The notes under the pieces: generated by a model
Seen by the model: the letters and a program-made list of their open reading frames with translations, nothing else
The model's database searches: none
Told to the model about the DNA's origin: nothing
Made by a program: the position numbers and the translations under genes
In this document: positions 3,500-24,510 of the stretch, piece after piece
Position numbering within the stretch: the first letter of the stretch is position 1
How the letters are laid out: every line of letters starts with the position of its first letter
Source of the DNA: Rikenellaceae bacterium
Lineage (GTDB): Bacteria; Bacteroidota; Bacteroidia; Bacteroidales; Rikenellaceae
NCBI GenBank assembly: GCA_015059875.1
Contig: SUZQ01000003.1
Span: 1-64,000 of the forward strand
Direction: 5' to 3'
Length of the DNA stretch: 64,000 nt

Positions 3500-3510
3500 A
3501 AAGGAAAATA

Positions 3511-3544: not shown

Positions 3545-3549
3545 GAATA

Positions 3550-4242: not shown

Positions 4243-4245
4243 CCG

Positions 4246-5064: not shown

Positions 5065-5082
5065 ATTTAACAAAAAGAGGTT

Positions 5083-5535
5083 ATGCGTGTCGTAATACAG
5101 AAGGTTCAGCGTTGCAGCGTTGAGGTTGAGGGCAATGTGATTGGCAAAATCGGAAATGGTTTGGCTATCCTGCTTGGTGTTGAGGAGGCTGATACGCAGG
5201 AGGATATAGATTGGTTGTGTGGCAAGGTGTCGCGTCTGCGCATCTTCGATGATGAGAACGGAGTGATGAATCGCGATATTAAGCAAGCCGAGGGGCGCGC
5301 GATTGTGATAAGTCAATTTACGCTCTTTGCTTCGACCAAAAAGGGAAATCGTCCTTCGTATATTCGTTCGGCAGGTGAGGCGGTGGCAAGACCGATGTAC
5401 GAGAAGTTCCTCGCAACGCTCTCGGAGCTGCTTGGCGAAGAGGTGGAACACGGAGAGTTTGGAGCAGATATGAAGGTGTCGCTCGTGAATGATGGGCCTG
5501 TGACAATATGCATAGACTCCAAAAATAGAGAGTAA
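5083..5535 (+). CDS. dtd: D-aminoacyl-tRNA deacylase
   Basis: MRVVIQKV, SQFTLFASTKKGNRPSY, FGADMKVSLVNDGPVTI motifs. Confidence 0.95.
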   Translation: MRVVIQKVQRCSVEVEGNVIGKIGNGLAILLGVEEADTQEDIDWLCGKVSRLRIFDDENGVMNRDIKQAEGRAIVISQFTLFASTKKGNRPSYIRSAGEAVARPMYEKFLATLSELLGEEVEHGEFGADMKVSLVNDGPVTICIDSKNRE

Positions 5536-5559
5536 AGAAAGAACTTAAAATATAACAAA

Positions 5560-6375: not shown

Positions 6376-6387
6376 TAGCAGAGAGTT

Positions 6388-7164: not shown

Positions 7165-7965
7165 ATGAAGAATCTACGCATTGTTTTACTATTGGTACTT
7201 GCACTATTTGTGGCGCAGAGTGCTATGGCGTGGGCTAACTTTGGGCACGGAGCTATTGCCTATGTAGCAGAACAACACCTTACCCCAAAGGCAAAGGAGA
7301 GTTGTCGTCACTACTTGAAACACACGCTTCCGTGGTACTCTTCGTGGATGGATTTTTGGCGTGCCGTTCCGCCATACGCTCATACGAATATGTGGCATGG
7401 CATAAAGTCGGATGAGAAGGGTAAGTTGCGTTGGGATATCTCAGGCGAGCGCGCTAATGGTCAAGCTATGATTCAGGTTAAGCGCATTGTTGAGGAGATG
7501 CAGAACTACAAGAGTATGCCCGACTCGCTGGTGCGACAGAACCTAATATATCTGATTCATAGCGTGGCAGATATGCACTGCCCTGTGCATATTCAATTCC
7601 CAAAGACTGCCTATCCGCACTATCGCTTCGACCTGAAGAATAGGGGTAAGAAGCATAGTTTTCATGGTTTTTGGGATGCTGCACCCGGATTTAAGCGCAA
7701 GGGCTGGAGCTTTGCCAAGTATGCCGAGGAGGTGGATAAGATGTCGCCAAAGCAGATAAAGAGAATCCAAAAAGGTTCGTATGATGCATGGGGACGCGAT
7801 ATTTTGAAGCAGGCTCACCGCGCATTTCAGATTACGCCTGCGGGTAAAGATATAGCGCACCTTACGGCAGAGGAGCAGAGAGCCGTGCTGGCGTTGGCAG
7901 ATGAGATGTCGATGAAGGCGGCATATCGCTTGGCGTATCTCCTCAACTCAATTTTTGACGAGTAA
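7165..7965 (+). CDS. S1/P1 nuclease family protein, type A (subfamily A1)
   Basis: WANFGHGAIAYVAEQHLTPKAK; SSWMDFWR; MWHGI; LIHSVADMHCPVH; HGFWD; AYRLAYLLNSIF. Confidence 0.92.
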   Translation: MKNLRIVLLLVLALFVAQSAMAWANFGHGAIAYVAEQHLTPKAKESCRHYLKHTLPWYSSWMDFWRAVPPYAHTNMWHGIKSDEKGKLRWDISGERANGQAMIQVKRIVEEMQNYKSMPDSLVRQNLIYLIHSVADMHCPVHIQFPKTAYPHYRFDLKNRGKKHSFHGFWDAAPGFKRKGWSFAKYAEEVDKMSPKQIKRIQKGSYDAWGRDILKQAHRAFQITPAGKDIAHLTAEEQRAVLALADEMSMKAAYRLAYLLNSIFDE

Positions 7966-7994: not shown

Positions 7995-8795
7995 ATGAAA
8001 AACCGATTTTTGATTGTCGTTCTCTCGCTCGTATCGATATTGAGCGTGCAGAATGCAAAGGCGTGGGGTGGCTGGGGACACCATATATCCACCTTTATCG
8101 CCGAAAAACACCTGACACCTGAGGCAAATGAGAAGTGCCAGCACTATCTCAAACATAGCTTGCCACACTACTCGTCGTGGCAGGACTATTGGCGTCACAG
8201 TGATCCGTTCAAGGAGATATCCTATTGGCACTCAAGCTACATCAACAAGAAGAAAAAGGTTACGGGCCACAAGAATATCATCACTCGTGATGCAGTGACT
8301 CAAATTGAGCGCATCGTGAAGGAGATGGAGAAGGGCAAGTACCACAACCTCTCCGATTCGATGGTGACTGTAAACTTGAAACTCCTTATCCATATGGTAC
8401 CCGACATGCACTGTCCAAGCCATATTGTTCACTCGAAGGATTATGGTCTTAAGAGCAAATCGTTGCTCGTTAAGGGCAAGAAGTTTGGCCGTCATAAGGT
8501 TTGGGACTCTGCGCCGATGTTGTTACATCCGAAGTGGAAGGCAGATCGCTTTGCTAAGGCATACGACACCTACTCTCCAAAGCAGATTAAGAAGATTTGC
8601 AAGGGAACACCTTCGAAATGGACGGTGCAGAATGGAAAGAAGATGATAAAGACCTACTACTTCTGGGAGAGGGGTGAAGAGTTCCGCAACTTTACACCTG
8701 AGCAGCGCAAGAATTTCGAGGATATTACGCACGAGCAGCTCGCCTATGGAGGTTATCGCTTGGCGGCAATCCTGAATGAGATATTCAAATATTAA
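7995..8795 (+). CDS. S1/P1 nuclease family protein, type A
   Basis: WGGWGHHISTFIAEKHLTPEA; SSWQDYWR; YWHSS; LIHMVPDMHCPSH; HKVWD. Confidence 0.92.
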   Translation: MKNRFLIVVLSLVSILSVQNAKAWGGWGHHISTFIAEKHLTPEANEKCQHYLKHSLPHYSSWQDYWRHSDPFKEISYWHSSYINKKKKVTGHKNIITRDAVTQIERIVKEMEKGKYHNLSDSMVTVNLKLLIHMVPDMHCPSHIVHSKDYGLKSKSLLVKGKKFGRHKVWDSAPMLLHPKWKADRFAKAYDTYSPKQIKKICKGTPSKWTVQNGKKMIKTYYFWERGEEFRNFTPEQRKNFEDITHEQLAYGGYRLAAILNEIFKY

Positions 8796-8814: not shown

Positions 8815-9615
8815 ATGAAGAATAAATTTATCGCTATCGTTCTCTCGCTCGCAGCATTGCTGGGCGTACAGAGAGCAAATGCGTGGGCGTTGTGGGGACA
8901 CCACCTCATCGCCTATGTGGCAGAGCAACACCTCACTCCCGAGGCAAAGGCTAATTGCGAACATTACCTCAAACACAAGGTTACTCACTACTCGTTGTGG
9001 CAGGACTATTGGCGCAATAGCGATCCGTTCAAGGAGATTACCCATTGGCACATGAACTATATCGACAAGGATTTCAATACTGTGGGTAAGAAGGGTAACA
9101 TCACTCGTGATGCCGTAACTCAGATTGAGCGCATCGTGAAGGAGATGGAGAAGGGCAAGTACAAGCAGATGTCCGACTCGATGGTTATGGTAAACCTGAA
9201 ACTCCTTATCCACATGGTTGGCGATATGCATACCCCTTGCCATGTGGGCTATGCAAAGGAGAGTGGCTATAAGATTTCGTCGCTTATCGTCAATGGCAAG
9301 AAGTACAATCATCACAAGTTCTGGGATGCGGCACCGCAGGTTATGCATCCGAAGTGGAATGCCGACAAGTACTTGAAGGCGTGCGATACCTACTCGCCAA
9401 AGCAGATTAAGAAGATTGTGAAAGGTAACCCTACAAAGTGGGGCAAGCAGAATGCCTACAAGATGGTTAAAACCTTCTACTTCTGGGAAAAGGGTACCGA
9501 GTTGAAGAATCTGACCGAGGAGCAGCGCAAGCAGATTGACGATGTGATGTTCGAGCAGATTGCTTATGCGGGCTATCGCTTGGCGAATATCCTTAATAAA
9601 ATTATGTCTAAATAA
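8815..9615 (+). CDS. S1/P1 nuclease family protein, type A
   Basis: WALWGHHLIAYVAEQHLTPEA; SLWQDYWR; HWHMN; LIHMVGDMHTPCH; HKFWD. Confidence 0.92.
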   Translation: MKNKFIAIVLSLAALLGVQRANAWALWGHHLIAYVAEQHLTPEAKANCEHYLKHKVTHYSLWQDYWRNSDPFKEITHWHMNYIDKDFNTVGKKGNITRDAVTQIERIVKEMEKGKYKQMSDSMVMVNLKLLIHMVGDMHTPCHVGYAKESGYKISSLIVNGKKYNHHKFWDAAPQVMHPKWNADKYLKACDTYSPKQIKKIVKGNPTKWGKQNAYKMVKTFYFWEKGTELKNLTEEQRKQIDDVMFEQIAYAGYRLANILNKIMSK

Positions 9616-9639
9616 TAAACCTATAACGAATTTACCACT

Positions 9640-10431
9640 ATGAAAAAGATAGTATTTTTGATGTTTGCCCTTGCAATGGTTGCAAACGAGGCGCTTGCTT
9701 TTAATACATTTGCCCACCAGACAATCTCGAAGTTGACCGAGATGAACCTCAACGAAAAGACTAAGCAGGAGGTTAAGGCGATTCTTAAAACCAGCATCAC
9801 AAAGGAGTGTGTATGGCTTAACACCTTGCGCAAGAATCCTGAAATGGCTCACACAAAGTCGTGGCACTTCTTCCAGCTCGATGCTAACGGCAAATCGACC
9901 ACAATGGACGAGAACGACGGTATCGTACAGCTCGAGAAGGCTATTGCCGTACTTCGCAATCGCAAGAATCATAGCGAGGCGGAGCAGCTTACAGCGTTGC
10001 GCACGGTGATTCACCTTGTGCAGGATATGCACTGCCTTTCGCACATCCGCATCGAGGGTATCGAGGCTACAAAGGGCTTCACTTTCCGTATTTGGAACGA
10101 GCTCGACGGCAAGGGCCGCAAGGAGTGGAATCAGAAGTGGTATACCTTGTGGGAGTCGACTTTCTCCAATCGCTACACCATCTTCACTCCGCAGTACTAT
10201 GCCGAGGATATCGACATCTACGCACGCGACAAGAAGGCGGAATACTCGAAGGGCGAGCCTCGTTTCTGGGTTGAGAATGGCGGCGAGGATGTCGTTCGCG
10301 CTCTCAAGCAGCTCAACACGGGTGCGGTTGTGCCTACACAGGTGGTACTGACTCACGAGTTCAACCATACCAAGTGTATGGCGAAGGCTGCATATCGCTT
10401 GGCAGCTCTCTTGAACGATATTTTCAAATAA
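9640..10431 (+). CDS. S1/P1 nuclease paralog, type B with intermediate metal site
   Basis: FNTFAHQTISKLTEMNL (Trp1 to Phe, His6 kept); SWHFFQLD; VIHLVQDMHCLSH; then B-type IRIEGIEATKGFTF and YAEDIDIY. Confidence 0.8.
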   Translation: MKKIVFLMFALAMVANEALAFNTFAHQTISKLTEMNLNEKTKQEVKAILKTSITKECVWLNTLRKNPEMAHTKSWHFFQLDANGKSTTMDENDGIVQLEKAIAVLRNRKNHSEAEQLTALRTVIHLVQDMHCLSHIRIEGIEATKGFTFRIWNELDGKGRKEWNQKWYTLWESTFSNRYTIFTPQYYAEDIDIYARDKKAEYSKGEPRFWVENGGEDVVRALKQLNTGAVVPTQVVLTHEFNHTKCMAKAAYRLAALLNDIFK

Positions 10432-10452
10432 GATACCTAAATACAACTAACT

Positions 10453-11250
10453 ATGAAGCGTAAAATTTCAATTTTAGTTCTTGCACTTGTGGCTTTAATG
10501 GGCGTGCAGAGTGCAAAGGCTTGGGGCGGTTACGGTCATGGAGCAATCGCCTATGTAGCCGAGCAACACCTCACGCCAAAGGCAAAGGCGGAGTGTCGTC
10601 GCTATTTGAAGCACACTCTCCCATGGTATGCGTCGTGGATGGATCATTGGCGTGCAGTACCTCCATTCCACCCAACAAATGCTTGGCATGGTTTCTCGGC
10701 TACAGCCGACGGTCAAGTCAATTGGGATAAGGGCGACGGTAAGGCTATGGGACAGATTATAAAGATTGTGGAGAGTATGGGTAATGGCAAGTACAAGAAT
10801 CTTCCCGATTCGCTCGTGCGTCACAACCTCTTGATTTTGGTTCATGCGTTGCCTGATATGCACTGTCCTGTGCATGTAGGCTTCTCAAGGAGCGATTTTC
10901 CGCAGTACAAATACTCGCTCCGTCGCAATGGAAAGCCGTATAAGATGCACGGTTTCTGGGACGGCTCGCCTGGCTTCCAGCGCAAGAATTGGACATTCGA
11001 GAGGTATGCTAAGACTGTTGATAATATTACACCAAAGCAGGAGAAGAAGATCGTCAAGAAGGGCAACTTCGACTATTGGGGACGCGATATTATCAAGCAG
11101 GCACATCGTGCTTACGCAATCACTCCCGAGGATAAGGATATAGCGAAGCTCACAGCCGATGAGAAGGCGGATGTTTTGGCATTGGCAGATGAGATGTCGA
11201 TGAAGGCGGCTTATCGCTTGGCGTATGTATTGAACACTATTTTCAAATAA
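10453..11250 (+). CDS. S1/P1 nuclease family protein, type A (subfamily A1)
   Basis: WGGYGHGAIAYVAEQHLTPKAK; ASWMDHWR; AWHGF; LVHALPDMHCPVH; HGFWDGSPGF. Confidence 0.92.
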   Translation: MKRKISILVLALVALMGVQSAKAWGGYGHGAIAYVAEQHLTPKAKAECRRYLKHTLPWYASWMDHWRAVPPFHPTNAWHGFSATADGQVNWDKGDGKAMGQIIKIVESMGNGKYKNLPDSLVRHNLLILVHALPDMHCPVHVGFSRSDFPQYKYSLRRNGKPYKMHGFWDGSPGFQRKNWTFERYAKTVDNITPKQEKKIVKKGNFDYWGRDIIKQAHRAYAITPEDKDIAKLTADEKADVLALADEMSMKAAYRLAYVLNTIFK

Positions 11251-11266
11251 AAAACGAGTTGAAACG

Positions 11267-12055
11267 ATGAAAAAGATAATTTTGGTATTGGCACTCGCGC
11301 TGACAGTTTCGGTTGCGAATGCTTGGAATAAACCAGCCGATGAGGGTGTTGTGATTTTGGCAAATAAACATCTCTCTGCTGAAGCAAAGAGTTTGCTTAA
11401 TGAGTATTTGGGCGAGAGCTATGCTGACGATGTGCAGTATCTCTACACTCTTGAGCGTAAGAAGATTGCAAAGCATTCAAAGGAGATTCACTATCTTCAC
11501 CTCGATAGCAATTTGAAGCCTACAAAGGTGGCAGGTGCTGATGCGTTGGCTGGTATCGAGAGCGCATTGGAAGTTGTTCGTGGTCGCAACTCGCACTCAA
11601 AGGGCGAGGTTGTAGAGGCTTTGCGTACCATTATTACCCTTATCTGCGATATGCACAACTTCTCGTATGTCCGTATCGAGGGCATTGCAAACTCGCAGCA
11701 GGACTTTAAGTTCAAGTGCTATGGTGGTGATGTCGGTAAGCGTAAGGTCGCTAATCCAATTAGCTGGGGACGATTCTGGAATTACTACGCAGGATGGCAC
11801 ACCGGTTTTTCGGGCGATTTGTGGGCTGAGGATATCGAGTTGTGCCTTGGCGCGCGTCGTGCGGAGCTTGCTGCTGGCGGCTTGAACGATTGGGCTACTC
11901 AAATTGGCGAGAAGGCTGCTTGGTTATACAGCTATATCAACCCTGAGTATTCGATGACTCGTCGCGAGCGCAACGAACTTGAGGAGTTGAACTACGAGAT
12001 GATGGCTCGTGCAGGTTATCGTTTGGCGGTACTTTTGAATGAGGTTGCTAAATAG
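11267..12055 (+). CDS. Degenerate S1/P1 nuclease paralog, type B (subfamily B1)
   Basis: WNKPADEGVVILANKHL; YADDVQYLYTLE; EIHYLHLD; TLICDMHNFSYVRIEGI; LWAEDI; AGYRLAVLLNEVAK. Confidence 0.8.
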   Translation: MKKIILVLALALTVSVANAWNKPADEGVVILANKHLSAEAKSLLNEYLGESYADDVQYLYTLERKKIAKHSKEIHYLHLDSNLKPTKVAGADALAGIESALEVVRGRNSHSKGEVVEALRTIITLICDMHNFSYVRIEGIANSQQDFKFKCYGGDVGKRKVANPISWGRFWNYYAGWHTGFSGDLWAEDIELCLGARRAELAAGGLNDWATQIGEKAAWLYSYINPEYSMTRRERNELEELNYEMMARAGYRLAVLLNEVAK

Positions 12056-12066
12056 TAAAGCCATTT

Positions 12067-12861
12067 ATGAAAGTTCGTGCATTAATCGCTTTATGCCTCG
12101 CCTTCGTAGCAACGGAGGCGATGGCATGGAGCGCTCATACCCACATCACCATAGGTCATATTGCCGAACAACATCTTTCGACTGAGGCGAAGGCAAAGAC
12201 TCATCACTATTTGCGCCATACGCTTGCCTATTATGCAGTTTGGCAGGATGATGTAGCATTCAGCAAAGAGTATGCCGAAACTCGCTATTGGCACGGAGTG
12301 CGCTACGATGCAAAGAATCGCTATCAGTACCGTGAGGGTAGAAATGCTATCACCCATATTATCCGCATTTGGGATGAGATGAAGGATGGTGGGTACAAGA
12401 AGTTGACCGACTCGGCTATCGTTGTAAATCTAAAACTCCTCATCCACATGGTCGGCGATATGCACTGTCCGTCACACAACTATTATGATGACGATCCGAA
12501 TCCGAGGTATAAGCGATACTCCATTCTTGTCAATGGCAAGAAGGTGCATTGGCACAAGTTCTGGGATCGTTCGGCAGTGCAATTTTTCCATAAGGGTTGG
12601 AGCAGTCAGGATTATGTGAAGAATATCGACAATCTCACCGAGAAGCAGATTGCCAAGATTGTGAAGGGAACGCCTGAGCAGTGGGCAAAGCAGAATGGCA
12701 GGGATATGCGCGAGCCATACCGAACGCTGCTTATTCCTCATGTCGAGTTCAGTGATATGCCCGAAGAGAACAAACAGCGAATGTGCGAGATTGTAGATTT
12801 GCAGATTCTGCGCGGAGGATACCGCTTGGCACATATCATTAACGATATATTCAAGTATTAG
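12067..12861 (+). CDS. S1/P1 nuclease family protein, type A
   Basis: WSAHTHITIGHIAEQHL; AVWQDDVAF; YWHGV; LIHMVGDMHCPSH; HKFWD. Confidence 0.92.
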   Translation: MKVRALIALCLAFVATEAMAWSAHTHITIGHIAEQHLSTEAKAKTHHYLRHTLAYYAVWQDDVAFSKEYAETRYWHGVRYDAKNRYQYREGRNAITHIIRIWDEMKDGGYKKLTDSAIVVNLKLLIHMVGDMHCPSHNYYDDDPNPRYKRYSILVNGKKVHWHKFWDRSAVQFFHKGWSSQDYVKNIDNLTEKQIAKIVKGTPEQWAKQNGRDMREPYRTLLIPHVEFSDMPEENKQRMCEIVDLQILRGGYRLAHIINDIFKY

Positions 12862-12875
12862 AGGAGGGTTGCGAT

Positions 12876-13646
12876 ATGAAGAAGATATTTATGATTGTGG
12901 CCCTTGTGGCAATAGTATTTTCGGCACAGGCGTGGACTCGCGAGGCGGATCATGGAACAAGAGTCTTTGCAAGAGAGCATCTCGACGCTTCGGTAGTGAA
13001 GGAGTATACTCGCATTTTGCGTCTGGGCAAGAAGTATCCTCGCGAGAAAGTTGCTACACCGCAGGATGAGCGTTGGGGACGAGTATCTCTCGGAACGGAT
13101 TTGCGCTCGACAACAACCTACGAGGGCGATGTTGTCGTACAGATAGAGCGTGCGGCCGATGTGTTGCGCAACCGTGCAGACCATAGCGAGAAGGAGCAAA
13201 TCGAGGCTCTGCGTTCCATTTTCTCCAATATGATTTTGTTGCACAACATCTCGTGTGTGTCGATTGAGGGTGTAGTGAAGTCCAAGGGATTCAAAGTATA
13301 TACCCATTGGGGCGAGTCGGAGCCTAAGTTCGATAAAAGGAGTATTAGGTCGTGGGCGCAGATTTGGGGGCGTAATGCCACATTAGGCTTTTATGGTTTT
13401 ACTCCCGAAATGTTTGCCGAGGAGTTGCGAATCAGCCACGGAACGGATAAAGAGTCGTTCTCGGCAGGTACAATTCGTGATTGGGCGGCCGATATGGGCA
13501 AGGAGGCTGCGGCTCAATTGGAGTGGGCTGAACCCGATATGAAGCTCTATAAAATGAAGCTTATCGATATCGAACCCGTACACAATCGCCTCATGGCGAA
13601 GGCAGGCTTCCGCTTGGCGGCTCTGCTTAATGAGGTGCTTAAGTAG
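12876..13646 (+). CDS. Degenerate S1/P1 nuclease paralog, type B
   Basis: WTREADHGTRVFAREHL; SNMILLHNISCVSIEGV; FAEELRI; AGFRLAALLNEVLK. Confidence 0.78.
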   Translation: MKKIFMIVALVAIVFSAQAWTREADHGTRVFAREHLDASVVKEYTRILRLGKKYPREKVATPQDERWGRVSLGTDLRSTTTYEGDVVVQIERAADVLRNRADHSEKEQIEALRSIFSNMILLHNISCVSIEGVVKSKGFKVYTHWGESEPKFDKRSIRSWAQIWGRNATLGFYGFTPEMFAEELRISHGTDKESFSAGTIRDWAADMGKEAAAQLEWAEPDMKLYKMKLIDIEPVHNRLMAKAGFRLAALLNEVLK

Positions 13647-13687
13647 TCATTTTTTTTGATATTTTTAATTAATAAAGTAAAGAGATT

Positions 13688-14485
13688 ATGAATAGAAGAT
13701 TATTATTGTTGGCTTTGGCGACACTCTTTGTTGCCAATAGCGCAATGGCTTGGGGAGGCTTCGGCCACGGAGCAATTGCATATGTTGCAGAGCAGCATCT
13801 TACCCCTGAGGCAAAGGAGAAGTGTCGCTACTATCTAAAGCACACTCTTCCATACTATGCTTCGTGGATGGATCATTGGCGTGGTATTGCTAAGTATAAG
13901 AGTGTGAATAACCCACACTCGTTCAAGGTCATGCCAGATGGATATAATATTGATTGGGGAGGTACTCCTGAGGGCCGCGTATTGGGACACTATGTAAATG
14001 CAATGAAGGAGCTCGGCAATGGCAATTACAAGAATCTTCCCGATTCGGTTGTGCGTCAGCGACTTATCAATATGGTGCACTACCTTCCTGATTTACACTG
14101 TCCTGTACATGTAGGCTTCCCGAAGAAAGAGTTTGCGCACTATCGTTACAATATCTACAGAAAGGGTAAGAAGATTAAGTATCACGGATTTTGGGATGGC
14201 TCTCCTGGATTTACTCGTAAGAATTGGACATTTGAGCGTTATGCTGCCGAGGTTGATAAGGTAACTCCAAAGCAAGCAAAGAGATGGGTAAAGGGAGATA
14301 TCGATGTTTGGGGACGCGATATTATCAAGCAGGCGCATCGTTGCTATCAGATTACTCCAGCCGAGACCGATGTTGCAAATCTTACAGAAGAGCAAAAGGC
14401 GGAGGTGTTGAGGCTTGCTGACGAGCAGGCACTGAAGGCTGCTTATCGCTTGGCTCACACATTGAATAAAATTTTTGCGGAGTAA
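13688..14485 (+). CDS. S1/P1 nuclease family protein, type A (subfamily A1)
   Basis: WGGFGHGAIAYVAEQHLTPEAK; ASWMDHWR; NPHSF; MVHYLPDLHCPVH; HGFWDGSPGF. Confidence 0.92.
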   Translation: MNRRLLLLALATLFVANSAMAWGGFGHGAIAYVAEQHLTPEAKEKCRYYLKHTLPYYASWMDHWRGIAKYKSVNNPHSFKVMPDGYNIDWGGTPEGRVLGHYVNAMKELGNGNYKNLPDSVVRQRLINMVHYLPDLHCPVHVGFPKKEFAHYRYNIYRKGKKIKYHGFWDGSPGFTRKNWTFERYAAEVDKVTPKQAKRWVKGDIDVWGRDIIKQAHRCYQITPAETDVANLTEEQKAEVLRLADEQALKAAYRLAHTLNKIFAE

Positions 14486-14513
14486 TTTACTTTTTGAGAA
14501 AGGAGATTCTATT

Positions 14514-15305
14514 ATGAAGAAGATATTTTTATTGTTAGCTTTTGCCCTCACGGCATCTGTGGCAAATGCTTGGATTAGAGTTTGTGATGAGGGTGTTGCT
14601 ATTTTGGCATTGAAGCACCTTACACCAGCAGCAAAGAGTGTTGTAGAGCAGCATTTGGGTACATCCGTAAAGGATGATGTGCACTATCTCTATGTGCTTG
14701 AGTCGAAGAAGAAGTCGCCATACTCAAAGGAGGTGCATTTCGTTCATCTTGATGCTAATCTTAATCCACATGCAGCTGACGAGAACGACGCTTTGGTAGT
14801 GTTAGAGCGTTGCGTAGATGTTGTTAAGACACGCGACAACCACTCGGCAGCTGAGGTTAAGGCGGCATTGCGTACCATTATTAATCTAATGTGCGATGTT
14901 CACAACTTCTCGTACTATCGTATCGAGGGCGTGGCTCATTCGCAGCAGCCGTTCAAGTTCAAGCGTACTGTTTACGAGTATGGTAAGACCAAGGATGATA
15001 TCGCCAATGTTAAGTGGATGACATTGTGGAGTAGCTACGGCAATCGTCATCGTGGTTTTTCGGGCGATTTGTGGGCTGAGGATATGGCTTTGTGCCTCGG
15101 TCACAAGAAGGCTGAGTATTCGCAAGGTTCACTTTGCGATTGGGTAAAGGAGACGGGTACAAAGTCGGCTGCTTTCCTTGAGTTTATCAATCCTTCGTAT
15201 GTAATGCCTGTATTGATGTTCAATGAGTTGGAGGATACCAACTACGAGCAGATGGTGCGTGCGAGCTTCCGCTTGGCTGCACTTCTGAATAGTACTATTC
15301 AATAG
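14514..15305 (+). CDS. Degenerate S1/P1 nuclease paralog, type B (subfamily B1)
   Basis: Likely start MKKIFLLLAF at 14514; WIRVCDEGVAILALKHL; EVHFVHLD; NLMCDVHNFSYYRIEGV; LWAEDM. Confidence 0.8.
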   Translation: MKKIFLLLAFALTASVANAWIRVCDEGVAILALKHLTPAAKSVVEQHLGTSVKDDVHYLYVLESKKKSPYSKEVHFVHLDANLNPHAADENDALVVLERCVDVVKTRDNHSAAEVKAALRTIINLMCDVHNFSYYRIEGVAHSQQPFKFKRTVYEYGKTKDDIANVKWMTLWSSYGNRHRGFSGDLWAEDMALCLGHKKAEYSQGSLCDWVKETGTKSAAFLEFINPSYVMPVLMFNELEDTNYEQMVRASFRLAALLNSTIQ

Positions 15306-15312
15306 TGAAAAT

Positions 15313-16149
15313 ATGAAAAAAACATCAATTATAACCATAATATTAGTGTTGTTCGTGACCACCCGCGCTATGGCGTGGGGTGGTCCTGGACACTCGATTA
15401 TTGGTTATATCGCAGAGAACCACTTAACGCCGGCGGCAAAGGAGAAGTGCCACCACTATATCCGCCACACACTCGCTTATGAGGCTTCGTGGATGGATCA
15501 TTGGCGTTATTGCAAGGGCTTTAATGGTACGGCACATTGGCATATCGGCTACGCCTACCCAGAGCGTCAGTATACGGGCGATTTTCGCGATCAGTTTCTC
15601 AAGCAGGAGTCGGTGCGCAAGAGTGCCGCATATCGTATCAACGAGTTCCACAACGAGCTGCGCGGCTCCTACAAGGAGATGCCCGACTCGATAGTGGCGA
15701 ATAAGATTCGTTTCTTGATACATATGTTGGGTGATATGCACTGCCCAGCCCATGTGGCAATCCCTGTTGAAGATAAACCGACTTACGACGAAACAACGGT
15801 CTATAACCGTTATCGCCTCTATCGCAACGGCAAGAAGAGTTCGTATCATAATATGTGGGACACCGTTACCTCGTTGCTCTTTCCGAAGAGGATGATTCCG
15901 GAGTGGATTGAGGAGGTTGATACCTACAACGATAAGCAGCGCGAGAAGATATGTCAAGGCGATGCAAACGATTGGCTCGCTGCGACTACAAAGGATGTTT
16001 TTCGCTCCTACAAGCAGATTCCGCGCGATACTGACATCGCAAAGTTGAGCGACAAGCAGCGTGAGCAACTCACAAACCTCACATATAAGCAGATGGCTTA
16101 TGCAGGGTATCGTTTGGCGTATATTCTAAATGATATTTTTAAGGAGTAG
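15313..16149 (+). CDS. S1/P1 nuclease family protein, type A
   Basis: WGGPGHSIIGYIAENHLTPAAK; ASWMDHWR; HWHIG; LIHMLGDMHCPAH; HNMWD. Confidence 0.92.
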   Translation: MKKTSIITIILVLFVTTRAMAWGGPGHSIIGYIAENHLTPAAKEKCHHYIRHTLAYEASWMDHWRYCKGFNGTAHWHIGYAYPERQYTGDFRDQFLKQESVRKSAAYRINEFHNELRGSYKEMPDSIVANKIRFLIHMLGDMHCPAHVAIPVEDKPTYDETTVYNRYRLYRNGKKSSYHNMWDTVTSLLFPKRMIPEWIEEVDTYNDKQREKICQGDANDWLAATTKDVFRSYKQIPRDTDIAKLSDKQREQLTNLTYKQMAYAGYRLAYILNDIFKE

Positions 16150-16154
16150 TGGCT

Positions 16155-16898
16155 ATGAAACGAATAATATTTACACTTTTGTTGCTCGTGTCGGTGTGTT
16201 CGGCTGGAGCTTGGAATAAGAGTTCGTACGCTACAATTATGGTACTCGCCTCGCAGCAACTCTCACCCGAAGCCAAGGGTGTAGTCAATAAGGCTGTTGG
16301 AAGCGACTTTGCCACGATAGTTATCGCGGATAAGGCTCTGAATACCTTCTCGGTAGATGAGAACTACGCTCCACTTCGCAATGGAGATAATGATGCGTTA
16401 GTTGTAGCCGAGCAGTGCGTGGAGCGTCTGCGCAAAAATAAGGCAGATGGCGAGGCTATCGTTCTACTCGCGAAGGCTATTGCCGATTTGCACTCGGTGC
16501 CAAATTTCCGTATCAAGGATCACGACTTCTCGAACAATAACTATACGGTGCGCCGTTGGAATAATCGTGCGGGCAAGTTGGCTCGTTACAGAAATGTCAA
16601 GTGGCGTTCGCTGTGGAATACAGTATATCCTGGGCGTCACTACCTCTTTACTCCAGAGTTGTATGCCTACGATATTGACCTCTACCATTCACGATATCGC
16701 ACCGCGTTCATCGAGGGCGGAATCTCGGAGTGGGCTGCGGATGTAGCAAAGGAGTGTCGTGCGGTCTATGCAGAGGAGATGGGCGATATGTACATCCTGA
16801 CACAGGAGCGTGAGAATGAATACGAGTTTATTCATGATCGCCTAATGGCAAAGGCGGGCTATCGCTTGGGTACTTTGTTGAATGAAATTTTAAGATAA
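16155..16898 (+). CDS. Degenerate S1/P1 nuclease paralog, type B
   Basis: MKRIIFTLLLL signal; WNKSSYATIMVLASQQLSPEAK; KAIADLHSVPNFRIKD; YAYDIDLY; AGYRLGTLLNEIL. Confidence 0.75.
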   Translation: MKRIIFTLLLLVSVCSAGAWNKSSYATIMVLASQQLSPEAKGVVNKAVGSDFATIVIADKALNTFSVDENYAPLRNGDNDALVVAEQCVERLRKNKADGEAIVLLAKAIADLHSVPNFRIKDHDFSNNNYTVRRWNNRAGKLARYRNVKWRSLWNTVYPGRHYLFTPELYAYDIDLYHSRYRTAFIEGGISEWAADVAKECRAVYAEEMGDMYILTQERENEYEFIHDRLMAKAGYRLGTLLNEILR

Positions 16899-16910
16899 TA
16901 AATAGTTGTA

Positions 16911-17702
16911 ATGAAAAAGATTTTTATTGCGATTTTAGCGGTAGTAGCACTCTGCTCGTCGCATAGAGCAATGGCGTGGGGCGGTTTTGCACACTCCGCT
17001 ATCACCGAGATTGCCGAGCGTAATCTAACTCCGCAGGCGCGCGAGAAGATTCATCACTATCTGAATCACTCGTTGCCATTCTACGCAATTTGGATGGATC
17101 AGTATCGTTACACCGATCCTTATCGCCCATCGGGCAAGTGGCATAGCAACTGGATGGACGAGAGTGGTGCGGTGGATATGACAAACGAGTATTGTGCGGC
17201 TTATCAGACTACCCGCATCTGGAAGGAGATGAAAAATTACAAAAAGATGCCCGATTCGGTGGTGCGTCTGAATTTGTTGTATCTTATTCATCTTGTGGCT
17301 GATATGCACTGCCCTTGCCACAATGTATGGCCCAAGAAGTCTCATCCGCAATATCGCTATCACTTGACCAATAACAAGGGACAAAAGCAGTCGTTCCATA
17401 GCTATTGGGACAATACAGCGATTACCTATGGTCGTAAAAAGTGGACAGCAAGCTACTACGCTGATAAGATGGCAACCCTCTCGGAGAAGGAGATAAAGAA
17501 GATTTGCAAGGGTACACCTTACAAGTGGGCGGTGACGAGTCTGCCAAATGCCGAGCGTACATTTGAACTCACGCCAAAAGGCTCGAATGTACAGAAGTAC
17601 TCGAAGAAATCGCGTCAGGAGATGCGTCGCATTGTCGATGAGGAGGCTGTAAAGGCGGGTTATCGCTTGGCGTATGTTATGAATCAGATTTTCAAGAAGT
17701 AG
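16911..17702 (+). CDS. S1/P1 nuclease family protein, type A (subfamily A4)
   Basis: WGGFAHSAITEIAERNLTPQA; AIWMDQYR; KWHSN; LIHLVADMHCPCH; HSYWD. Confidence 0.92.
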   Translation: MKKIFIAILAVVALCSSHRAMAWGGFAHSAITEIAERNLTPQAREKIHHYLNHSLPFYAIWMDQYRYTDPYRPSGKWHSNWMDESGAVDMTNEYCAAYQTTRIWKEMKNYKKMPDSVVRLNLLYLIHLVADMHCPCHNVWPKKSHPQYRYHLTNNKGQKQSFHSYWDNTAITYGRKKWTASYYADKMATLSEKEIKKICKGTPYKWAVTSLPNAERTFELTPKGSNVQKYSKKSRQEMRRIVDEEAVKAGYRLAYVMNQIFKK

Positions 17703-17715
17703 AGGAGGATAGAGT

Positions 17716-18507
17716 ATGAAGAAGATATTTTTGGCTATCGCCCTCGTTATGGGCGTATATTCGGCTCAGGCTTGGAATTGGGTTTATGATCAGGCGACTC
17801 TCTTGTGGGCATTTGAGAATCTTACACCTCAGGCACAAGCGGAGTTCAAACGCTATCTCGGAGAGGATGTGCATCGCCAGATTCAAACTTTCGAGGCAGC
17901 ACGCAAGAAGGGACAACTGCGCGAAACCGCCGATTGGCGAACCATCTCGCTCGATATGGATTTGAAGCCCGTAATTACGGATGATAAAAATGCTATCGTG
18001 CAGATTGAGAAGGCTATGGAGGTTGTGAAAAATCGTGCAACGAAGAGCAACGAAGAGGTAGCTTTTGCGCTGCATACCATCATTGAACTCACCATCGAGA
18101 TGCACAATGTTGGCAATGTCCACCTCGAAGAGTTCCCTTTCTCGAAGGATGATTTCGAGTTCAGACAATCAATGGGTGGCTACGGCAAGAAGGAGAAGTT
18201 CCGTAATCGCAAGTGGAAACACTTCTGGTCTTACGGCTTCTCAATCTTCCATTCGGCGTGGTCGTCGGGTATGCACATTCGCGACTTGAAGGTGTGTCAA
18301 GGTCGCTACAAGGAGCAGTATCAAGCTGGCTCTCTGCGCGATTGGGCCACCGATATGGGCAAGTTGGTAAAGCCACTCTACGAGTGGGCAGAGCCAGGAT
18401 GTTACCTTTCGCGTCAGGCGCATGCCGAGCATGAGGAGTTGTTCCTCGCGGGCGTGGCGAGAGCTTCGTTCCGTATGGCAGTGTTGCTGAACGAGGCACT
18501 TAAGTAG
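17716..18507 (+). CDS. Degenerate S1/P1 nuclease paralog, type B (subfamily B2)
   Basis: WNWVYDQATLLWAFENLTPQA; DWRTISLD; ELTIEMHNVGNVHLEE; SFRMAVLLNEALK. Confidence 0.78.
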   Translation: MKKIFLAIALVMGVYSAQAWNWVYDQATLLWAFENLTPQAQAEFKRYLGEDVHRQIQTFEAARKKGQLRETADWRTISLDMDLKPVITDDKNAIVQIEKAMEVVKNRATKSNEEVAFALHTIIELTIEMHNVGNVHLEEFPFSKDDFEFRQSMGGYGKKEKFRNRKWKHFWSYGFSIFHSAWSSGMHIRDLKVCQGRYKEQYQAGSLRDWATDMGKLVKPLYEWAEPGCYLSRQAHAEHEELFLAGVARASFRMAVLLNEALK

Positions 18508-18537
18508 AAAACCAATAAACTAACCAAAAATAGAGTT

Positions 18538-19332
18538 ATGAGAAAAAATATTCTTAAAATTACCCTCGCCGTGGTGGCATTGTTCGCTACCGAGAGGGTG
18601 ATGGCGTGGGGTGGCTTTGGTCACACTGTGGCTTGCTACGCTGCGGAGCAGTTTCTCACTCCTGAGGCGAAGCAGAAGTGTCGCCACTATCTACGCTCCA
18701 CACTCGCTTATCAGGCATCGTGGATGGATCAGTATCGCTCGATTGAGGGCTATACCGATTGCGATAAGTGGCACAGTACAAACATCGATGCAAAGTATAA
18801 GGTAAAGGTCGGTCTGCCTACAACGGGTGCTTATCATATTGAGCGCATCCGAAAGGAGATGATGAATGGAGGCTACAAGAGTATGCCCGATTCGTTGGTT
18901 AAAATCAATCTTCAGTACCTTGTTCACATGATTCCCGACCACCATTGTCCTGTGCATGTGCGTTGGGACAAGTCGGAGCATCCTGAGTTCCACTACAGCC
19001 TCAAAAACAAGGGTAAGAAGCTGAGCTATCACGGTTTTTGGGATGGCTCAGTAGCGCGTTGGCGCAAGGGCTGGAATGCCGAGAAGTATTTTGAGAAGAT
19101 GGAGAAGTTGTCGAAGTCGCAGATTAAGAAGGTGCAGAAGGGCGATGGATATAAGTGGACACAGCAGACCGCTGATGTATCGCGCTACTGCTTCAAATTG
19201 ACACCTGAGGGTACCGATATATCAAAGTTGTCGAAGGAGGATAGAGCCGAGATTCATCGAGTTGTCGATCTTCAGATTCAGCGTGCAGCTTACCGCTTGG
19301 CAGGAGTGTTGAACGAAATTTTCAAGGAGTAA
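18538..19332 (+). CDS. S1/P1 nuclease family protein, type A (subfamily A4)
   Basis: WGGFGHTVACYAAEQFLTPEAK; ASWMDQYR; KWHST; LVHMIPDHHCPVH; HGFWD. Confidence 0.92.
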   Translation: MRKNILKITLAVVALFATERVMAWGGFGHTVACYAAEQFLTPEAKQKCRHYLRSTLAYQASWMDQYRSIEGYTDCDKWHSTNIDAKYKVKVGLPTTGAYHIERIRKEMMNGGYKSMPDSLVKINLQYLVHMIPDHHCPVHVRWDKSEHPEFHYSLKNKGKKLSYHGFWDGSVARWRKGWNAEKYFEKMEKLSKSQIKKVQKGDGYKWTQQTADVSRYCFKLTPEGTDISKLSKEDRAEIHRVVDLQIQRAAYRLAGVLNEIFKE

Positions 19333-19338
19333 ATGGGT

Positions 19339-20139
19339 ATGAAAAAGATAGTATTATTGTGTGCAGCACTTCTGGTTGGAACTCTCTCGGCAGGAGCGTG
19401 GACGCGAGTAGTCGATAAGGCGGTTTTGGTTGTTGCCTACAAGAATCTCAACCCACAGACTCAGCGCATATTGAAGAGCTATATCGGTGAGGATATTACC
19501 AAACCGGCAGGACATTTGGCTTGGCATCGCAAGAATGGCCGTATGCTCGAAAGCGAGGGTTGGCATCGTCTTCATCTCGATAGCAAATTGCAGCCCGCAG
19601 CGAAGGACGAAAACGACGCTTTTGTACAGATAGAGAAGGCGTTGGAGATTGTTCGCAATAGCAAACAATACAAGCGCGAAGAGGTGGCGTTGGCTATTCA
19701 GATTGTGATGAATCTCGTTACCGATATGCATAATATCGCCAATGTAACTCTCGAAAGTTATCCGATGTCGGCAGCTGATTTTCAGTTCTATACATCGAAA
19801 GGTACAGCGGGTGGCCGCAAGGCAAAGACTATTCAATATTCGTGGCGTAACCAGTGGACTTTTCGCTATGGTGGTTTCCATTCAGGCTATACCCACGATA
19901 TGTATGCCGAAGATATCGATTTGATGTTCGGCGACAAGAAGGCAGAGTTCTCGAAGGGCTCGTTGCGCGATTGGGCGCACGATATCGGCACCTACACCAC
20001 TGCGGTTTACGAGTTGTTGCAGAAGAATGATAACCACTTCCTCCATGCAACAGTGCAAGCCCACGAGCCGTTACATATGAGCTGCGTGGCCCGTGCGGCG
20101 TATCGCTTGGCGGTGCTGCTGAATGAGAATTTGAAATAA
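19339..20139 (+). CDS. Degenerate S1/P1 nuclease paralog, type B (subfamily B2)
   Basis: WTRVVDKAVLVVAYKNLNPQT; GWHRLHLD; NLVTDMHNIANVTLES; YAEDIDL; AYRLAVLLNENLK. Confidence 0.78.
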   Translation: MKKIVLLCAALLVGTLSAGAWTRVVDKAVLVVAYKNLNPQTQRILKSYIGEDITKPAGHLAWHRKNGRMLESEGWHRLHLDSKLQPAAKDENDAFVQIEKALEIVRNSKQYKREEVALAIQIVMNLVTDMHNIANVTLESYPMSAADFQFYTSKGTAGGRKAKTIQYSWRNQWTFRYGGFHSGYTHDMYAEDIDLMFGDKKAEFSKGSLRDWAHDIGTYTTAVYELLQKNDNHFLHATVQAHEPLHMSCVARAAYRLAVLLNENLK

Positions 20140-20184
20140 GGTGGCGGCAAGTAAGGGCGAGTAAGGGATCCAAATCAACAAAGA

Positions 20185-20233
20185 CCCCAGAATCCCCATA
20201 GTCCCCAGAAACCCTAGCACCCCTATAACCCCC
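20185..20233 (-). other. Potential G-quadruplex, six G-runs on the minus strand
   Basis: Plus strand ccccagaatccccatagtccccagaaaccctagcacccctataaccccc: C-runs at 20185, 20194, 20203, 20212, 20220, 20229 with 5-nt spacers. Confidence 0.65.
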
Positions 20234-20259
20234 AAATAATTCTAAAAAAAAACAGGAAA

Positions 20260-21075
20260 ATGAAAACAAAATTTTTAGCATTTATTGCAGTACTTGTTGC
20301 TCTGTGCAGTGTGCAGGGCGCAAAGGCGTGGAGTGGCTTCGGACACGGCTGTATAGCCTATGTTGCGGAGCAGCATCTTACGCCTGAAGCGAAGGAGAAG
20401 TGTCGCTACTATCTCCGTCATACACTCCCATACTACGCCTCGTGGATGGATTATTGGCGTGGCTCGCAGCATTTCAAAAAGGTGAATAGCGGACACACTG
20501 TTTCCGTTTTGTCGAGTGGAGATGGCTTGAATATGAAATATGGAGCCATGAAACACCTTGTAAACGCCATGAATGAGTTGGGCGATGGCAAGTACAAGAA
20601 TTTGCCCGACTCGGTTGTTCGTCAGCGACTTATCAATATGATTCACTATGTGGGCGATATGCACTGCCCATGCCATTCGAAGTTCTCGAAGAAATATTTT
20701 CCGCAATATAAAGGTAAGAAAACTGCCTATCGTGGTAAGAAGGAGGTTGCATACCATGGTTTTTGGGATGGCTCTCCTGGTCGGTGGCGAAAAGGTTGGG
20801 AGATAGAGGATTACGCCAAGAATGTAGACAAGGTATCGAAGAAGCAGGCGACAGCTTGGCAGAGTGGCACTTTTACCGATTGGGGGCGTGATATTGCAAA
20901 GGGCGGACACCGAGGTTTTGCCCTCTATCCCGAAGGAAAAGATATCGATAACCTCTCGTCGAAGGAGCGCAAGGCAATACTGGCATTGGCAGACGAGATG
21001 GCTATGCAGGGAGCATACCGTTTGGCGCATGTGCTTAATACGATTTTTGCAGATAAGAGTATCGAAACCCGTTAA
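20260..21075 (+). CDS. S1/P1 nuclease family protein, type A (subfamily A1)
   Basis: WSGFGHGCIAYVAEQHLTPEAK; ASWMDYWR; SGHTV; MIHYVGDMHCPCH; HGFWDGSPG. Confidence 0.92.
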   Translation: MKTKFLAFIAVLVALCSVQGAKAWSGFGHGCIAYVAEQHLTPEAKEKCRYYLRHTLPYYASWMDYWRGSQHFKKVNSGHTVSVLSSGDGLNMKYGAMKHLVNAMNELGDGKYKNLPDSVVRQRLINMIHYVGDMHCPCHSKFSKKYFPQYKGKKTAYRGKKEVAYHGFWDGSPGRWRKGWEIEDYAKNVDKVSKKQATAWQSGTFTDWGRDIAKGGHRGFALYPEGKDIDNLSSKERKAILALADEMAMQGAYRLAHVLNTIFADKSIETR

Positions 21076-21087
21076 TGAAAAGTGACT

Positions 21088-21900
21088 ATGAAAAGAGTAT
21101 CTATATTATTGGTGTTTGTTCTCTCCGTTTTTGTTGCAAATGCGTGGTCGCGCAAATGCGATGAGGCGGCAGTAATGGTGGCGAAAGAGCATCTTACGCC
21201 AGAGGCAAAGAAGTTGGTTAATAAGTACTTGGGAAAGAGCTATGCGGACGATGTAAAGTATCTCTACGATCTGGAAAAGGAGCAAGCTCCACAACTGAGC
21301 AAGAAGGCTCGCCGAGCAGCTGCGGAGGTGCATTATCTTCATCTCGACGGCAACTTCCAGCCAAAGAAGGTAAAGGGCAAGGATGCTTTGAAGAGTTTGG
21401 AGGCGGCATTGAAGGTAGTTAGCAACCGCAAATCGCACTCGAAGAGAGAGGTTGCAGTGGCTCTGCGCACGGTGATAAACCTTGTGTTCGATATGCACGA
21501 TTTGTCGAAAATTCGTATCGATGGCATTAAGCACTCGATGCGTGACTTCAGGTACAGTGTCCCTATGGCAGAGTTCGGAGCGAAGAAGGATCAGTTTAGC
21601 AAGGTTAAATGGTCGAAATCGTGGAGCTATTTCGATGGCGGTTACAACTTCTTCTCAGCGAACTATTGGGCCGAAGATTTGCGAATCTATATCGGTGATA
21701 AGTATGCCGACTACGCCAAAGGTTCACTCCGTGAGTGGGTATCCGAAAATGGTGCTTTGGCGGCACACTACCTCGAATTGTGCAAGCCTAATCAAGTCGT
21801 AGGCTATGTCGATCGCCGATTGATGAGCCCCGTAAATTACGAGATGTATGTCAAGGCGACCTGTCGCTTGGCAGCACTCTTGAACGAGAATCTCAAGTAG
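21088..21900 (+). CDS. Degenerate S1/P1 nuclease paralog, type B (subfamily B1)
   Basis: WSRKCDEAAVMVAKEHLTPEAK; YADDVKYLYDLE; EVHYLHLD; NLVFDMHDLSKIRIDGI; YWAEDL; CRLAALLNENLK. Confidence 0.8.
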   Translation: MKRVSILLVFVLSVFVANAWSRKCDEAAVMVAKEHLTPEAKKLVNKYLGKSYADDVKYLYDLEKEQAPQLSKKARRAAAEVHYLHLDGNFQPKKVKGKDALKSLEAALKVVSNRKSHSKREVAVALRTVINLVFDMHDLSKIRIDGIKHSMRDFRYSVPMAEFGAKKDQFSKVKWSKSWSYFDGGYNFFSANYWAEDLRIYIGDKYADYAKGSLREWVSENGALAAHYLELCKPNQVVGYVDRRLMSPVNYEMYVKATCRLAALLNENLK

Positions 21901-22027: not shown

Positions 22028-23131
22028 ATGAAGAGAATTATCCTCTCCGGTGGTGGTACCGGAGGTCACATTTACCCTGCAGTTTCGGTTGCTGAGGCTC
22101 TGAAAAAGAGCCTTGGCGATGATGTTGAGATTCTGTTTGTGGGTGCAGAGGGGAAGATGGAGATGACGCTCATCCCAAACCTCGGCTACAATATTAAGGG
22201 ATTGACAATTGTTGGATTGCAACGCCGCTTCACTTGGAAGAATTTTGCGTTGCCGTACTACTTGTTGCGCAGTCTTAATCAGGCTCGTTCTATTATCAAG
22301 GAGTTCAAGCCCGATGTAGTGGCAGGCTTTGGCGGTTATGCCAGCGCGCCAATTGTCTTTGCAGCGCAGCTGATGGGCATTCCTACCATTATTCAGGAGC
22401 AAAACTCATACGCAGGTCTTGTGAATAAGATTGTCGGCGGACACGCAAAGAGGGTATGCGTGGCTTATGAGGGAATGGATAGATTCTTCGACAAAGAGAA
22501 GATTGTAATGACAGGAAATCCTCTGCGCAGTGCCTTCGGCAAGGGCGATATTGACCGCGAGGCAGCATTTGCGCACTACGGCATGCAGGAGGGGTTGCCA
22601 ACAATCTTGATTGTGGGAGGCTCGCTCGGAACGCGCACCCTCAACAATATGATGAAGTCGTGGATTGTTACACTTGGCGGGGAGGCTCCCGTTCAGGTTA
22701 TCTGGCAGACGGGCCGCTTCTACGAGAAGGAGATGCGCGAGTTCTTTGCAAACTACCCAACCAAGAACATCTCCCTTGTACCATTTATTGACCGTATGGA
22801 TTACGCCTACGAGATTGCGGATGTGGTCGTATCGCGTAGTGGTGCTTGTACCGTGTCGGAGTTGTGCTTAGCGGCCAAACCAACACTCTTTGTTCCGTCG
22901 CCGAATGTTGCCGAGGATCATCAGACGAAGAATGCTCGTGCATTGGTGGACAAGGGCGCAGCGATGATGGTGAGCGATGCTGAGGCGGCAGATTGCGGTA
23001 TTGCTACAGCGTTGAAGATGGTGGCGGATGAGGAGTTGCTGAGGAGTCTATCGGAGAATATTGCAAAACTTGCAACTCCCGATGCTGCGGAGCGTGTGGC
23101 AGCGGAGATTCTAAAACAGATTAAGGATTAA
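22028..23131 (+). CDS. murG: UDP-N-acetylglucosamine transferase MurG
   Basis: ILSGGGTGGHIYPAVSVAEAL; TGNPLR; GGSLGTRTLN; SRSGACTVSEL. Confidence 0.95.
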   Translation: MKRIILSGGGTGGHIYPAVSVAEALKKSLGDDVEILFVGAEGKMEMTLIPNLGYNIKGLTIVGLQRRFTWKNFALPYYLLRSLNQARSIIKEFKPDVVAGFGGYASAPIVFAAQLMGIPTIIQEQNSYAGLVNKIVGGHAKRVCVAYEGMDRFFDKEKIVMTGNPLRSAFGKGDIDREAAFAHYGMQEGLPTILIVGGSLGTRTLNNMMKSWIVTLGGEAPVQVIWQTGRFYEKEMREFFANYPTKNISLVPFIDRMDYAYEIADVVVSRSGACTVSELCLAAKPTLFVPSPNVAEDHQTKNARALVDKGAAMMVSDAEAADCGIATALKMVADEELLRSLSENIAKLATPDAAERVAAEILKQIKD

Positions 23132-23136
23132 CGAAG

Positions 23137-24510
23137 ATGAAAGATAGAGTCTACTTTCTCGGTATTGGAGGTATCGGAATGAGTGCGTTGGCGCGCTACT
23201 TTCTCCACGAAGGGTGGCAGGTAGCGGGCTATGACCGTACAGCGACAGAACTTACTCGTCGTTTGGAAGCGGAGGGTGCAGCGATACACTACGAAGATGA
23301 TATAACGCTTATCCCAGAGCCTTTTCTCGATGCGGAGCGCACGGTGGTAATCTATACACCAGCGATTCCTGCCGACCACTCGGAGCAGGCGATGTTCCGC
23401 GAGCGAGGCTTCGAGATTAAGAAGCGTTCGCAGGTGCTTGGTTTGCTCTCGCAAGGGAAGTATGTGCAGGCGGTGTCGGGAACTCATGGAAAGACCTCAA
23501 CCTCGACCTTAACGGCGTGGCTGAACTACGCTGTATCGGGCGAGGGATCTGCTTTCTTGGGCGGTATATCCAAGAATTTCGGCTCGAACTTGGTGTTAGG
23601 CGCGGGGGAGAGATTTGTTGTTGAGGCGGATGAGTTTGATCGCTCGTTCTTGCAACTCTATCCCGATGCTGCGGTAGTGACCTCTGCGGATGCTGACCAC
23701 CTCGACATCTACGGCACACACGAGAAGGTTAAGGAGGCGTTCTCGCAGTTCGTTTCGCAGATTAAGGCAGGTGGTACGCTGATTATCAAAAAGGGTGTGG
23801 ATATCGCTATACCGAATGATAGAATTGCGGTATACCGCTACTCCTATAATGAGGAGTGCGATTTCTATGCACGCAATATAGAGCTTTTAGAGGGTGGCTA
23901 CTATCGCTACGATATTGTCACTCCGACAGGCGTTATCGAGGGGTGTGTACTCGGCATTCCGGGATGGGTTAATATCGAAAACTCGGTGGCTGCGGTGGCT
24001 CTGCTTTGGGCGGTTGAGCGCAATATTGCGGATGCAGAGTCGCTGCGTAGGGCGTTGCGAGAGTTTTCGGGCGTGAAGCGTCGTTTCGAGTTCTATGTGA
24101 ATACTCCGCAAGCGGTATATATGGATGACTATGCGCACCATCCACGCGAGTTGTCGGCAACAATCACTTCGGTAAAGCAGATGTTTCCGTCGCGTAGGGT
24201 TACAGCGATATTTCAACCGCACCTCTACACTCGCACGCGCGATCTCTACGAGGAGTTTGCCGAGGCTCTAAACGAGGCAGATGAGGTTGTTCTATTGCCG
24301 ATATATCCTGCACGAGAGTTGCCGATTGAGGGTATCACTACCGAGATTATTGCAAATCTCGTTACTAAGCCTTGCCGAATTGTTGAGCGAGAGGAGTTGG
24401 CGCAGACGATTGGAGAGATGGATACCGATGTAGTTGTGTCGTTCGGGGCAGGAAATATAGACGCTTGTTGCAATGAAATTGCAAATGTAGTTGCACAAAA
24501 ATCGTTCTGA
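23137..24510 (+). CDS. murC: UDP-N-acetylmuramate-L-alanine ligase
   Basis: YFLGIGGIGMSALARYF; SGTHGKTSTSTLTAWLN; DDYAHHPRE; IFQPHLYTRT. Confidence 0.95.
   Translation: MKDRVYFLGIGGIGMSALARYFLHEGWQVAGYDRTATELTRRLEAEGAAIHYEDDITLIPEPFLDAERTVVIYTPAIPADHSEQAMFRERGFEIKKRSQVLGLLSQGKYVQAVSGTHGKTSTSTLTAWLNYAVSGEGSAFLGGISKNFGSNLVLGAGERFVVEADEFDRSFLQLYPDAAVVTSADADHLDIYGTHEKVKEAFSQFVSQIKAGGTLIIKKGVDIAIPNDRIAVYRYSYNEECDFYARNIELLEGGYYRYDIVTPTGVIEGCVLGIPGWVNIENSVAAVALLWAVERNIADAESLRRALREFSGVKRRFEFYVNTPQAVYMDDYAHHPRELSATITSVKQMFPSRRVTAIFQPHLYTRTRDLYEEFAEALNEADEVVLLPIYPARELPIEGITTEIIANLVTKPCRIVEREELAQTIGEMDTDVVVSFGAGNIDACCNEIANVVAQKSF

Follow-up and report, generated by a model that had tools for sequence, protein, structure and literature searches.

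S1/P1 nucleases (PF02265) are textbook enzymes that have been studied as single proteins, and the family includes S1 and P1 of Aspergillus, the plant nucleases BFN2/TBN1 and SmNuc1 of Stenotrophomonas. Here we describe an array of S1/P1-type genes in which intact copies (A) alternate with degenerate paralogs (B), located in the first 64,000 nucleotides of contig SUZQ01000003.1 (assembly GCA_015059875.1, a Rikenellaceae bacterium of the genus Alistipes), hereafter the window. Judged from sequence, the A proteins appear to share with this family its fold, the mature N-terminal Trp of the secreted form and the nine zinc ligands of SmNuc1, which are Trp27, His32, Asp71, His88, His141, Asp145, His151, His175 and Asp179 (PMC11705217). 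The asymmetric unit of the ligand-free SmNuc1 crystal contains a single molecule, and the word "dimer" is absent from that paper (PMC11705217). The A genes occur in doublets and in arrays that reach 13 pairs; among the S1/P1 family entries that we found, none is said to form a complex with an inactive paralog. No S1/P1 pseudoenzymes or arrays of this type are described in the literature searched, most subscription journals being outside its coverage.

Complexes in which an active nuclease is joined by an inactive paralog that shares its fold are known elsewhere, XPF-ERCC1 being one. The same arrangement occurs in CPSF73-CPSF100 and INTS11-INTS9, where CPSF100 and INTS9 have been termed pseudonucleases (PMC7980224). 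The predicted A-B complex resembles these three, but they have unrelated folds, are intracellular and are single dedicated pairs, whereas A and B form tandem, diversified sets. In TbAdoMetDC-prozyme, the enzyme depends for its activity on heterodimer formation with a catalytically dead paralog (PMC6221367); this is another enzyme class, and activation is just one option for B. Polymorphic toxin/immunity arrays likewise consist of cognate two-gene units in tandem, in an effector-like order, but in the A-B arrays B is a paralog of A, delivery domains were not seen, lone A genes occur, and the ratio of nonsynonymous to synonymous substitution rates (dN/dS) is low.

Alternating intact and degenerate nuclease genes

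A preliminary description of the window had reported eight consecutive pairs, each an intact nuclease gene followed by a degenerate one. All 16 genes are present at the starts it gave, on the forward strand, full length and without internal stops (Table 1). The block extends further than had been described: a ninth A-B pair (5560/6388) and three lone A genes (4246, 7165 and 7995) upstream of the eight-pair run were overlooked, as were dtd within the nuclease block and murG, which adjoins the array downstream. Written as letters, the window array is AABAAABABABABABABABAB, and shuffles of these letters contain as many A-B adjacencies with p = 0.0009. The claim that the alternation exceeds random order also holds for 18 arrays taken together, which have 81 A-B adjacencies, whereas shuffles average 44 and never exceed 57.

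All 12 A genes of the window match PF02265 at 69–110 bits (cut-off 29.5), and their closest solved relatives are SmNuc1, P1, S1 and the plant nucleases. The same genome, a 2.07-Mb assembly that is 85% complete, has 26 matches to this family. Zinc ligands of A and B were scored on the basis of the SmNuc1 list (PMC11705217), and all nine are present in every window A gene. Among 120 A genes of the window and its relatives, each ligand site is kept in 119–120, the exceptions being one Asp-to-Glu change and one alignment gap. The N termini appear signal-like by eye and end in A-x-A before a Trp, so that Sec export with a mature N-terminal Trp is a prediction. We interpret A as a secreted S1/P1 nuclease with predicted zinc-dependent nuclease/3'-nucleotidase activity. 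A domain scan of A 8815 (266 amino acids) returned a single S1/P1 domain and one sub-threshold DUF6794 match, with no delivery or pre-toxin domain; the remaining A proteins are of the same length, without extension. PADLOC, which covers known defence proteins, gave zero matches for three A and three B proteins.

The B genes of the window retain one to five of the nine ligands, in line with the degeneracy first reported. With PF02265, 9640 scores above the cut-off (53.6 bits) and the other eight give 14–24 bits or no match, while a profile of the A genes finds all nine (E 1e-9 to 2e-35). Across 118 B genes, none has all nine ligands, the maximum being seven and the commonest number three, and Asp45 is retained in two. 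Other positions are strongly conserved: the second His of the D-x-H motif, which is not a ligand, is invariant (118/118), and near-invariant residues specific to B include a Phe (97%), two Trp (97–99%) and an Asp (91%), at positions that mostly vary in A. The tree and the ligand table place B as a single clade homologous to A, and we regard it as a paralog without the catalytic residues, of homologous fold and with a predicted loss of activity. Because the strong B matches are open frames without stops and the median dN/dS is 0.114 for B vs 0.095 for A (same orthologous pairs; rough values, with dS near saturation), B is kept by purifying selection and is not decaying.

Distribution and inheritance of the doublets

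We searched for B family-wide in 150 genomes and genus-wide in 180 Alistipes genomes. Strong matches are confined to Alistipes, where 33 of the 180 genomes have them; carriers in the named collection are labelled Alistipes sp. or Rikenellaceae bacterium, and most of these assemblies come from the ruminant hindgut (sheep, goat, yak, buffalo, deer and cattle). Adjacency in related genomes, the absence of which had been named beforehand as evidence against the doublet, is the prevailing arrangement: 108 of 118 B genes have an A directly upstream on the same strand, with gaps of -50 to 31 nucleotides, and the median gap is 9 for A-B vs 21 for B-A (p = 4e-10). Of the remaining ten, two are separated from their A by about 2.5 kb, four are preceded by another B, and four have no A or B upstream within the fetched stretch. 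The two wide gaps are recorded at 9121–10917 of L040, where a lipoprotein-like gene lies inside, and between 7464 and 9976 of L134. Cognate A and B share a reading frame in 56 of 108 pairs, against 36 expected at one third (uncorrected for relatedness of the pairs).

The arrays occupy a fixed site of the form cdd-rluA-dtd-(A-B)n-murG-murC, where between about 2 and 13 pairs are found, the longest row being that of the L110/L111 genome (13). A single pair right behind dtd is found in other genomes, where the fetched stretch contains no murG. Lone doublets occur at about ten further chromosomal sites, with A before B every time; their neighbours are unrelated housekeeping, glycosidase or peptidase genes, among which we found no functional link. 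In the window's own genome, an additional pair of this kind (L004 3501/4458; stretch 3501–6671) has a transporter gene on one side and, on the other, a secreted endonuclease/exonuclease/phosphatase-like gene and then a nitroreductase-like gene, all named by eye from sequence.

Path distances in separate A and B trees of 107 cognate pairs correlate with r = 0.81. When partners were shuffled within genomes, r averaged 0.10 and never rose above 0.24, and 0 of 2000 shuffles reached 0.81; for the window's genome alone (10 pairs) r is 0.83, reached in 0 of 20000 shuffles. The 57 B genes that have a following A correlate with their own A at r = 0.83 vs 0.38 with the next one. Where an A has a close nearest A in another array genome, the B neighbour of the latter is also the closest B in 80 of 82 instances (64/71 when counted by window pair type), and the order of pair types is roughly kept along the arrays of several species. 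As had been proposed, the A-B doublet, rather than the single gene, is the main unit of duplication, because the cognate trees match, the own A outperforms the next A, and doublets have moved whole to unrelated sites.

Predicted complex of A and B

A and B often share a reading frame, and a fusion that follows the DNA letter for letter is obtained when the A stop is translated as Gln. AlphaFold2 was run on such a read-through fusion of mature A 18538 and B 19339, with an alignment of 55 cognate fusions. The mean predicted local distance difference test score (pLDDT) is 92.7 and the predicted template modelling score (pTM) 0.90; the sole stretch with pLDDT below 50 is the linker, mostly the B signal peptide. 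For two 240-residue domains with undefined mutual placement, a pTM near 0.5 is expected. As a control we used two intact S1/P1 nucleases that lie in tandem in a relative, with an alignment of 14 in-frame fusions; its pLDDT is 84.1 and its pTM 0.52, a large difference from the cognate fusion. Unpaired single rows were left out of the control alignment; with them included, MAFFT had assigned every other row to one query half, and that version was discarded. Foldseek matches of the cognate model are S1, P1, SmNuc1 and plant nucleases. A predicted A-B interaction, another feature whose absence had been listed as counter-evidence, is thus seen in this comparison, and A and B are predicted to form a heterodimer.

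Locus organization and other degenerate copies

The block begins with cdd and a gene for an RluA-type pseudouridine synthase and ends at murG and murC (Table 1). A scan of the block for promoters and terminators found sites no more frequent than in shuffles. The ATG starts of B at 14514, 16155, 19339 and 21088 lie inside slightly longer open reading frames (14475 TTG, 16149 GTG, 19333 and 21082 GTG, respectively). A lone A between the rluA-type gene and dtd, outside the main array, is found in the window (4246–5064) and in L110 (4392–5207).

Table 1. Genes of the nuclease block and its flanks in the window
Feature	Position	Strand	Basis or remark
Cytidine deaminase (cdd)	2620..3084	+	NCBIfam cytidine deaminase; syntenic in relatives; left flank of fixed site
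RluA-type pseudouridine synthase	3550..4242	+	NCBIfam RluA subfamily profile, below cut-off; syntenic; left flank
Lone A, predicted secreted S1/P1 nuclease	4246..5064	+	PF02265, 87 bits; nine ligands intact
dtd, D-aminoacyl-tRNA deacylase	5083..5535	+	TIGR00256; inside block
A of pair 0	5560..6375	+	PF02265; nine ligands intact
B of pair 0, putative pseudonuclease	6388..7152	+	B profile, 286 bits; orthologous B in L038 likewise behind its own A
Lone A	7165..7965	+	PF02265; nine ligands intact
Lone A	7995..8795	+	PF02265; nine ligands intact
A of pair 1	8815..9615	+	PF02265, E 2.6e-31
B of pair 1	9640..10431	+	Least degenerate window B; ligands F H N H H D H Y E
A of pair 2	10453..11250	+	PF02265; ligand table
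B of pair 2	11267..12055	+	Profile search; ligand table
A of pair 3	12067..12861	+	PF02265; ligand table
B of pair 3	12876..13646	+	Profile search; ligand table
A of pair 4	13688..14485	+	PF02265; ligand table
B of pair 4	14514..15305	+	Profile search; ligand table
A of pair 5	15313..16149	+	PF02265; ligand table
B of pair 5	16155..16898	+	Profile search; ligand table
A of pair 6	16911..17702	+	Orthologous pair in several other genomes
B of pair 6	17716..18507	+	Orthologous pair in several other genomes
A of pair 7	18538..19332	+	A half of modelled fusion
B of pair 7	19339..20139	+	B half of modelled fusion
A of pair 8	20260..21075	+	PF02265; ligand table
B of pair 8	21088..21900	+	Profile search; ligand table
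murG	22028..23131	+	TIGR01133; right flank of fixed site; murG-murC right of array in relatives
murC	23137..24510		Next after murG

A separate degenerate S1/P1 clade, here called C (ligands, for example, WHYRTDHTE), lies right behind an intact copy at L155–L158, L161, L162, L166 and L168–L177. About a dozen other Alistipes genomes have clade C, arranged in clusters that read intact-C-intact-intact; 11 of 12 examined rows fall in C (support 100), and at L158 a similar multi-gene unit occurs twice in tandem. The placement of C's intact partner close to A in the tree is weakly supported (88). The combination of an intact and a dead gene seems to have arisen at least twice, because C lies outside the B clade. 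One further S1/P1 copy, at 2419–3255 of L183, sits between two intact ones, differs at the ligand sites by a change of the last Asp to Glu only, and groups apart from B and C.

Discussion

We propose that the products of each A-B doublet form a secreted nuclease of two subunits, with A as the catalytic protein and B as its pseudoenzyme partner, and that these doublets have diversified as a repertoire; we give this a probability of about 0.66. With its Sec signal, mature N-terminal Trp and complete trinuclear zinc site, A would be the catalytic subunit, and B, a paralog of the same fold whose zinc site is lost, would be the non-catalytic one. Exported to one compartment, either the periplasm or the outside, the two would associate as a cognate heterodimer. 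Within it, B would most likely modulate the substrate binding, stability or activity of A, in the way that ERCC1 acts on XPF, CPSF100/INTS9 on CPSF73/INTS11 and prozyme on AdoMetDC. Doublets that duplicated at a single chromosomal location and exchanged partners rarely or never would have generated a repertoire of divergent nuclease heterodimers, probably for degrading varied RNA, single-stranded DNA or nucleotides in the herbivore hindgut. From the functions that had been suggested for the doublet, a heterodimer is favoured; inhibitor, chaperone and substrate-delivery roles inside such a heterodimer are not told apart by the evidence.

Several points weigh against a two-subunit nuclease. Part of the difference in pTM may reflect alignment depth, because the control alignment was shallower (14 vs 55 rows), and the control also had a lower pLDDT. 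One pair of each kind was modelled, with A-B placement judged by pTM and pLDDT only. The co-inheritance of A and B could stem from tight linkage alone, and because linkage can keep trees matched, the matched trees do not by themselves prove contact between the proteins. The dN/dS values are rough given the near-saturated dS. Three A genes in the window and a few in relatives have no adjoining B; these lone genes and the four successions of B upon B mean that the pairing is not strictly obligate for each gene.

The strongest rival is that B is a cognate inhibitor or immunity-like protein, binding its own A in the periplasm and keeping it inactive until release, so that the arrays would be sets of nuclease-inhibitor (effector-immunity-like) pairs. 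The order of A then B, the cognate co-inheritance and the predicted complex fit this equally well, the occasional B-B runs could be orphan immunity genes, and Het-C, a related hydrolase fold, is present in polymorphic toxins (PMC3482391). Charge is also compatible, mature A being basic (mean +8) and B nearly neutral (+1.8), with a weak negative correlation between them (r = -0.23). We nevertheless consider this role rather unlikely: lone A genes exist even beside the array, many intact S1/P1 paralogs in these genomes have no B at all, the scanned A carries no delivery, repeat or pre-toxin domain, the PADLOC search of six proteins was empty, and the low dN/dS gives no sign of an arms race.

B might instead have a new activity of its own, such as another metal site or the binding of a ligand or glycan, and merely be co-transcribed with A. 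Its own set of invariant residues would suit such a function, but the confident placement of A and B in the model, and the tracking by B of its own A rather than the next one, would then be left unexplained, and we judge this improbable. Even less credible is the absence of any physical partnership, in which unequal crossing-over amplified doublets and B is a tolerated decayed copy. Tandem arrays do amplify in multi-gene units, and linkage alone may yield matching trees; against this stand the purifying selection on B and its stop-free frames, the retention of both genes in dispersed doublets, and the pTM of 0.90 for the cognate fusion vs 0.52 for the control.

A more far-reaching version of the two-subunit proposal, which we think more likely wrong than right, is that the proteins are extracellular, combinatorially diversified and obligate nuclease-pseudonuclease heterodimers, with B setting the substrate or sequence preference of each A. 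Up to 13 such pairs would lie beside a cell-wall gene cluster, and the combination of intact and dead genes would have evolved at least two times in the genus.

The A-B pairs point to an undescribed family of two-part secreted nucleases. Nearly every expansion in this clade keeps a dead sister beside a live enzyme, which makes it a natural experiment. With more than 100 cognate pairs, matched phylogenies and B genes that range from 7/9 to 1/9 of the ligands, it offers material for testing how a pseudoenzyme turns into a partner, and the tandem A-B sets would allow testing whether pairs keep or exchange their partners.

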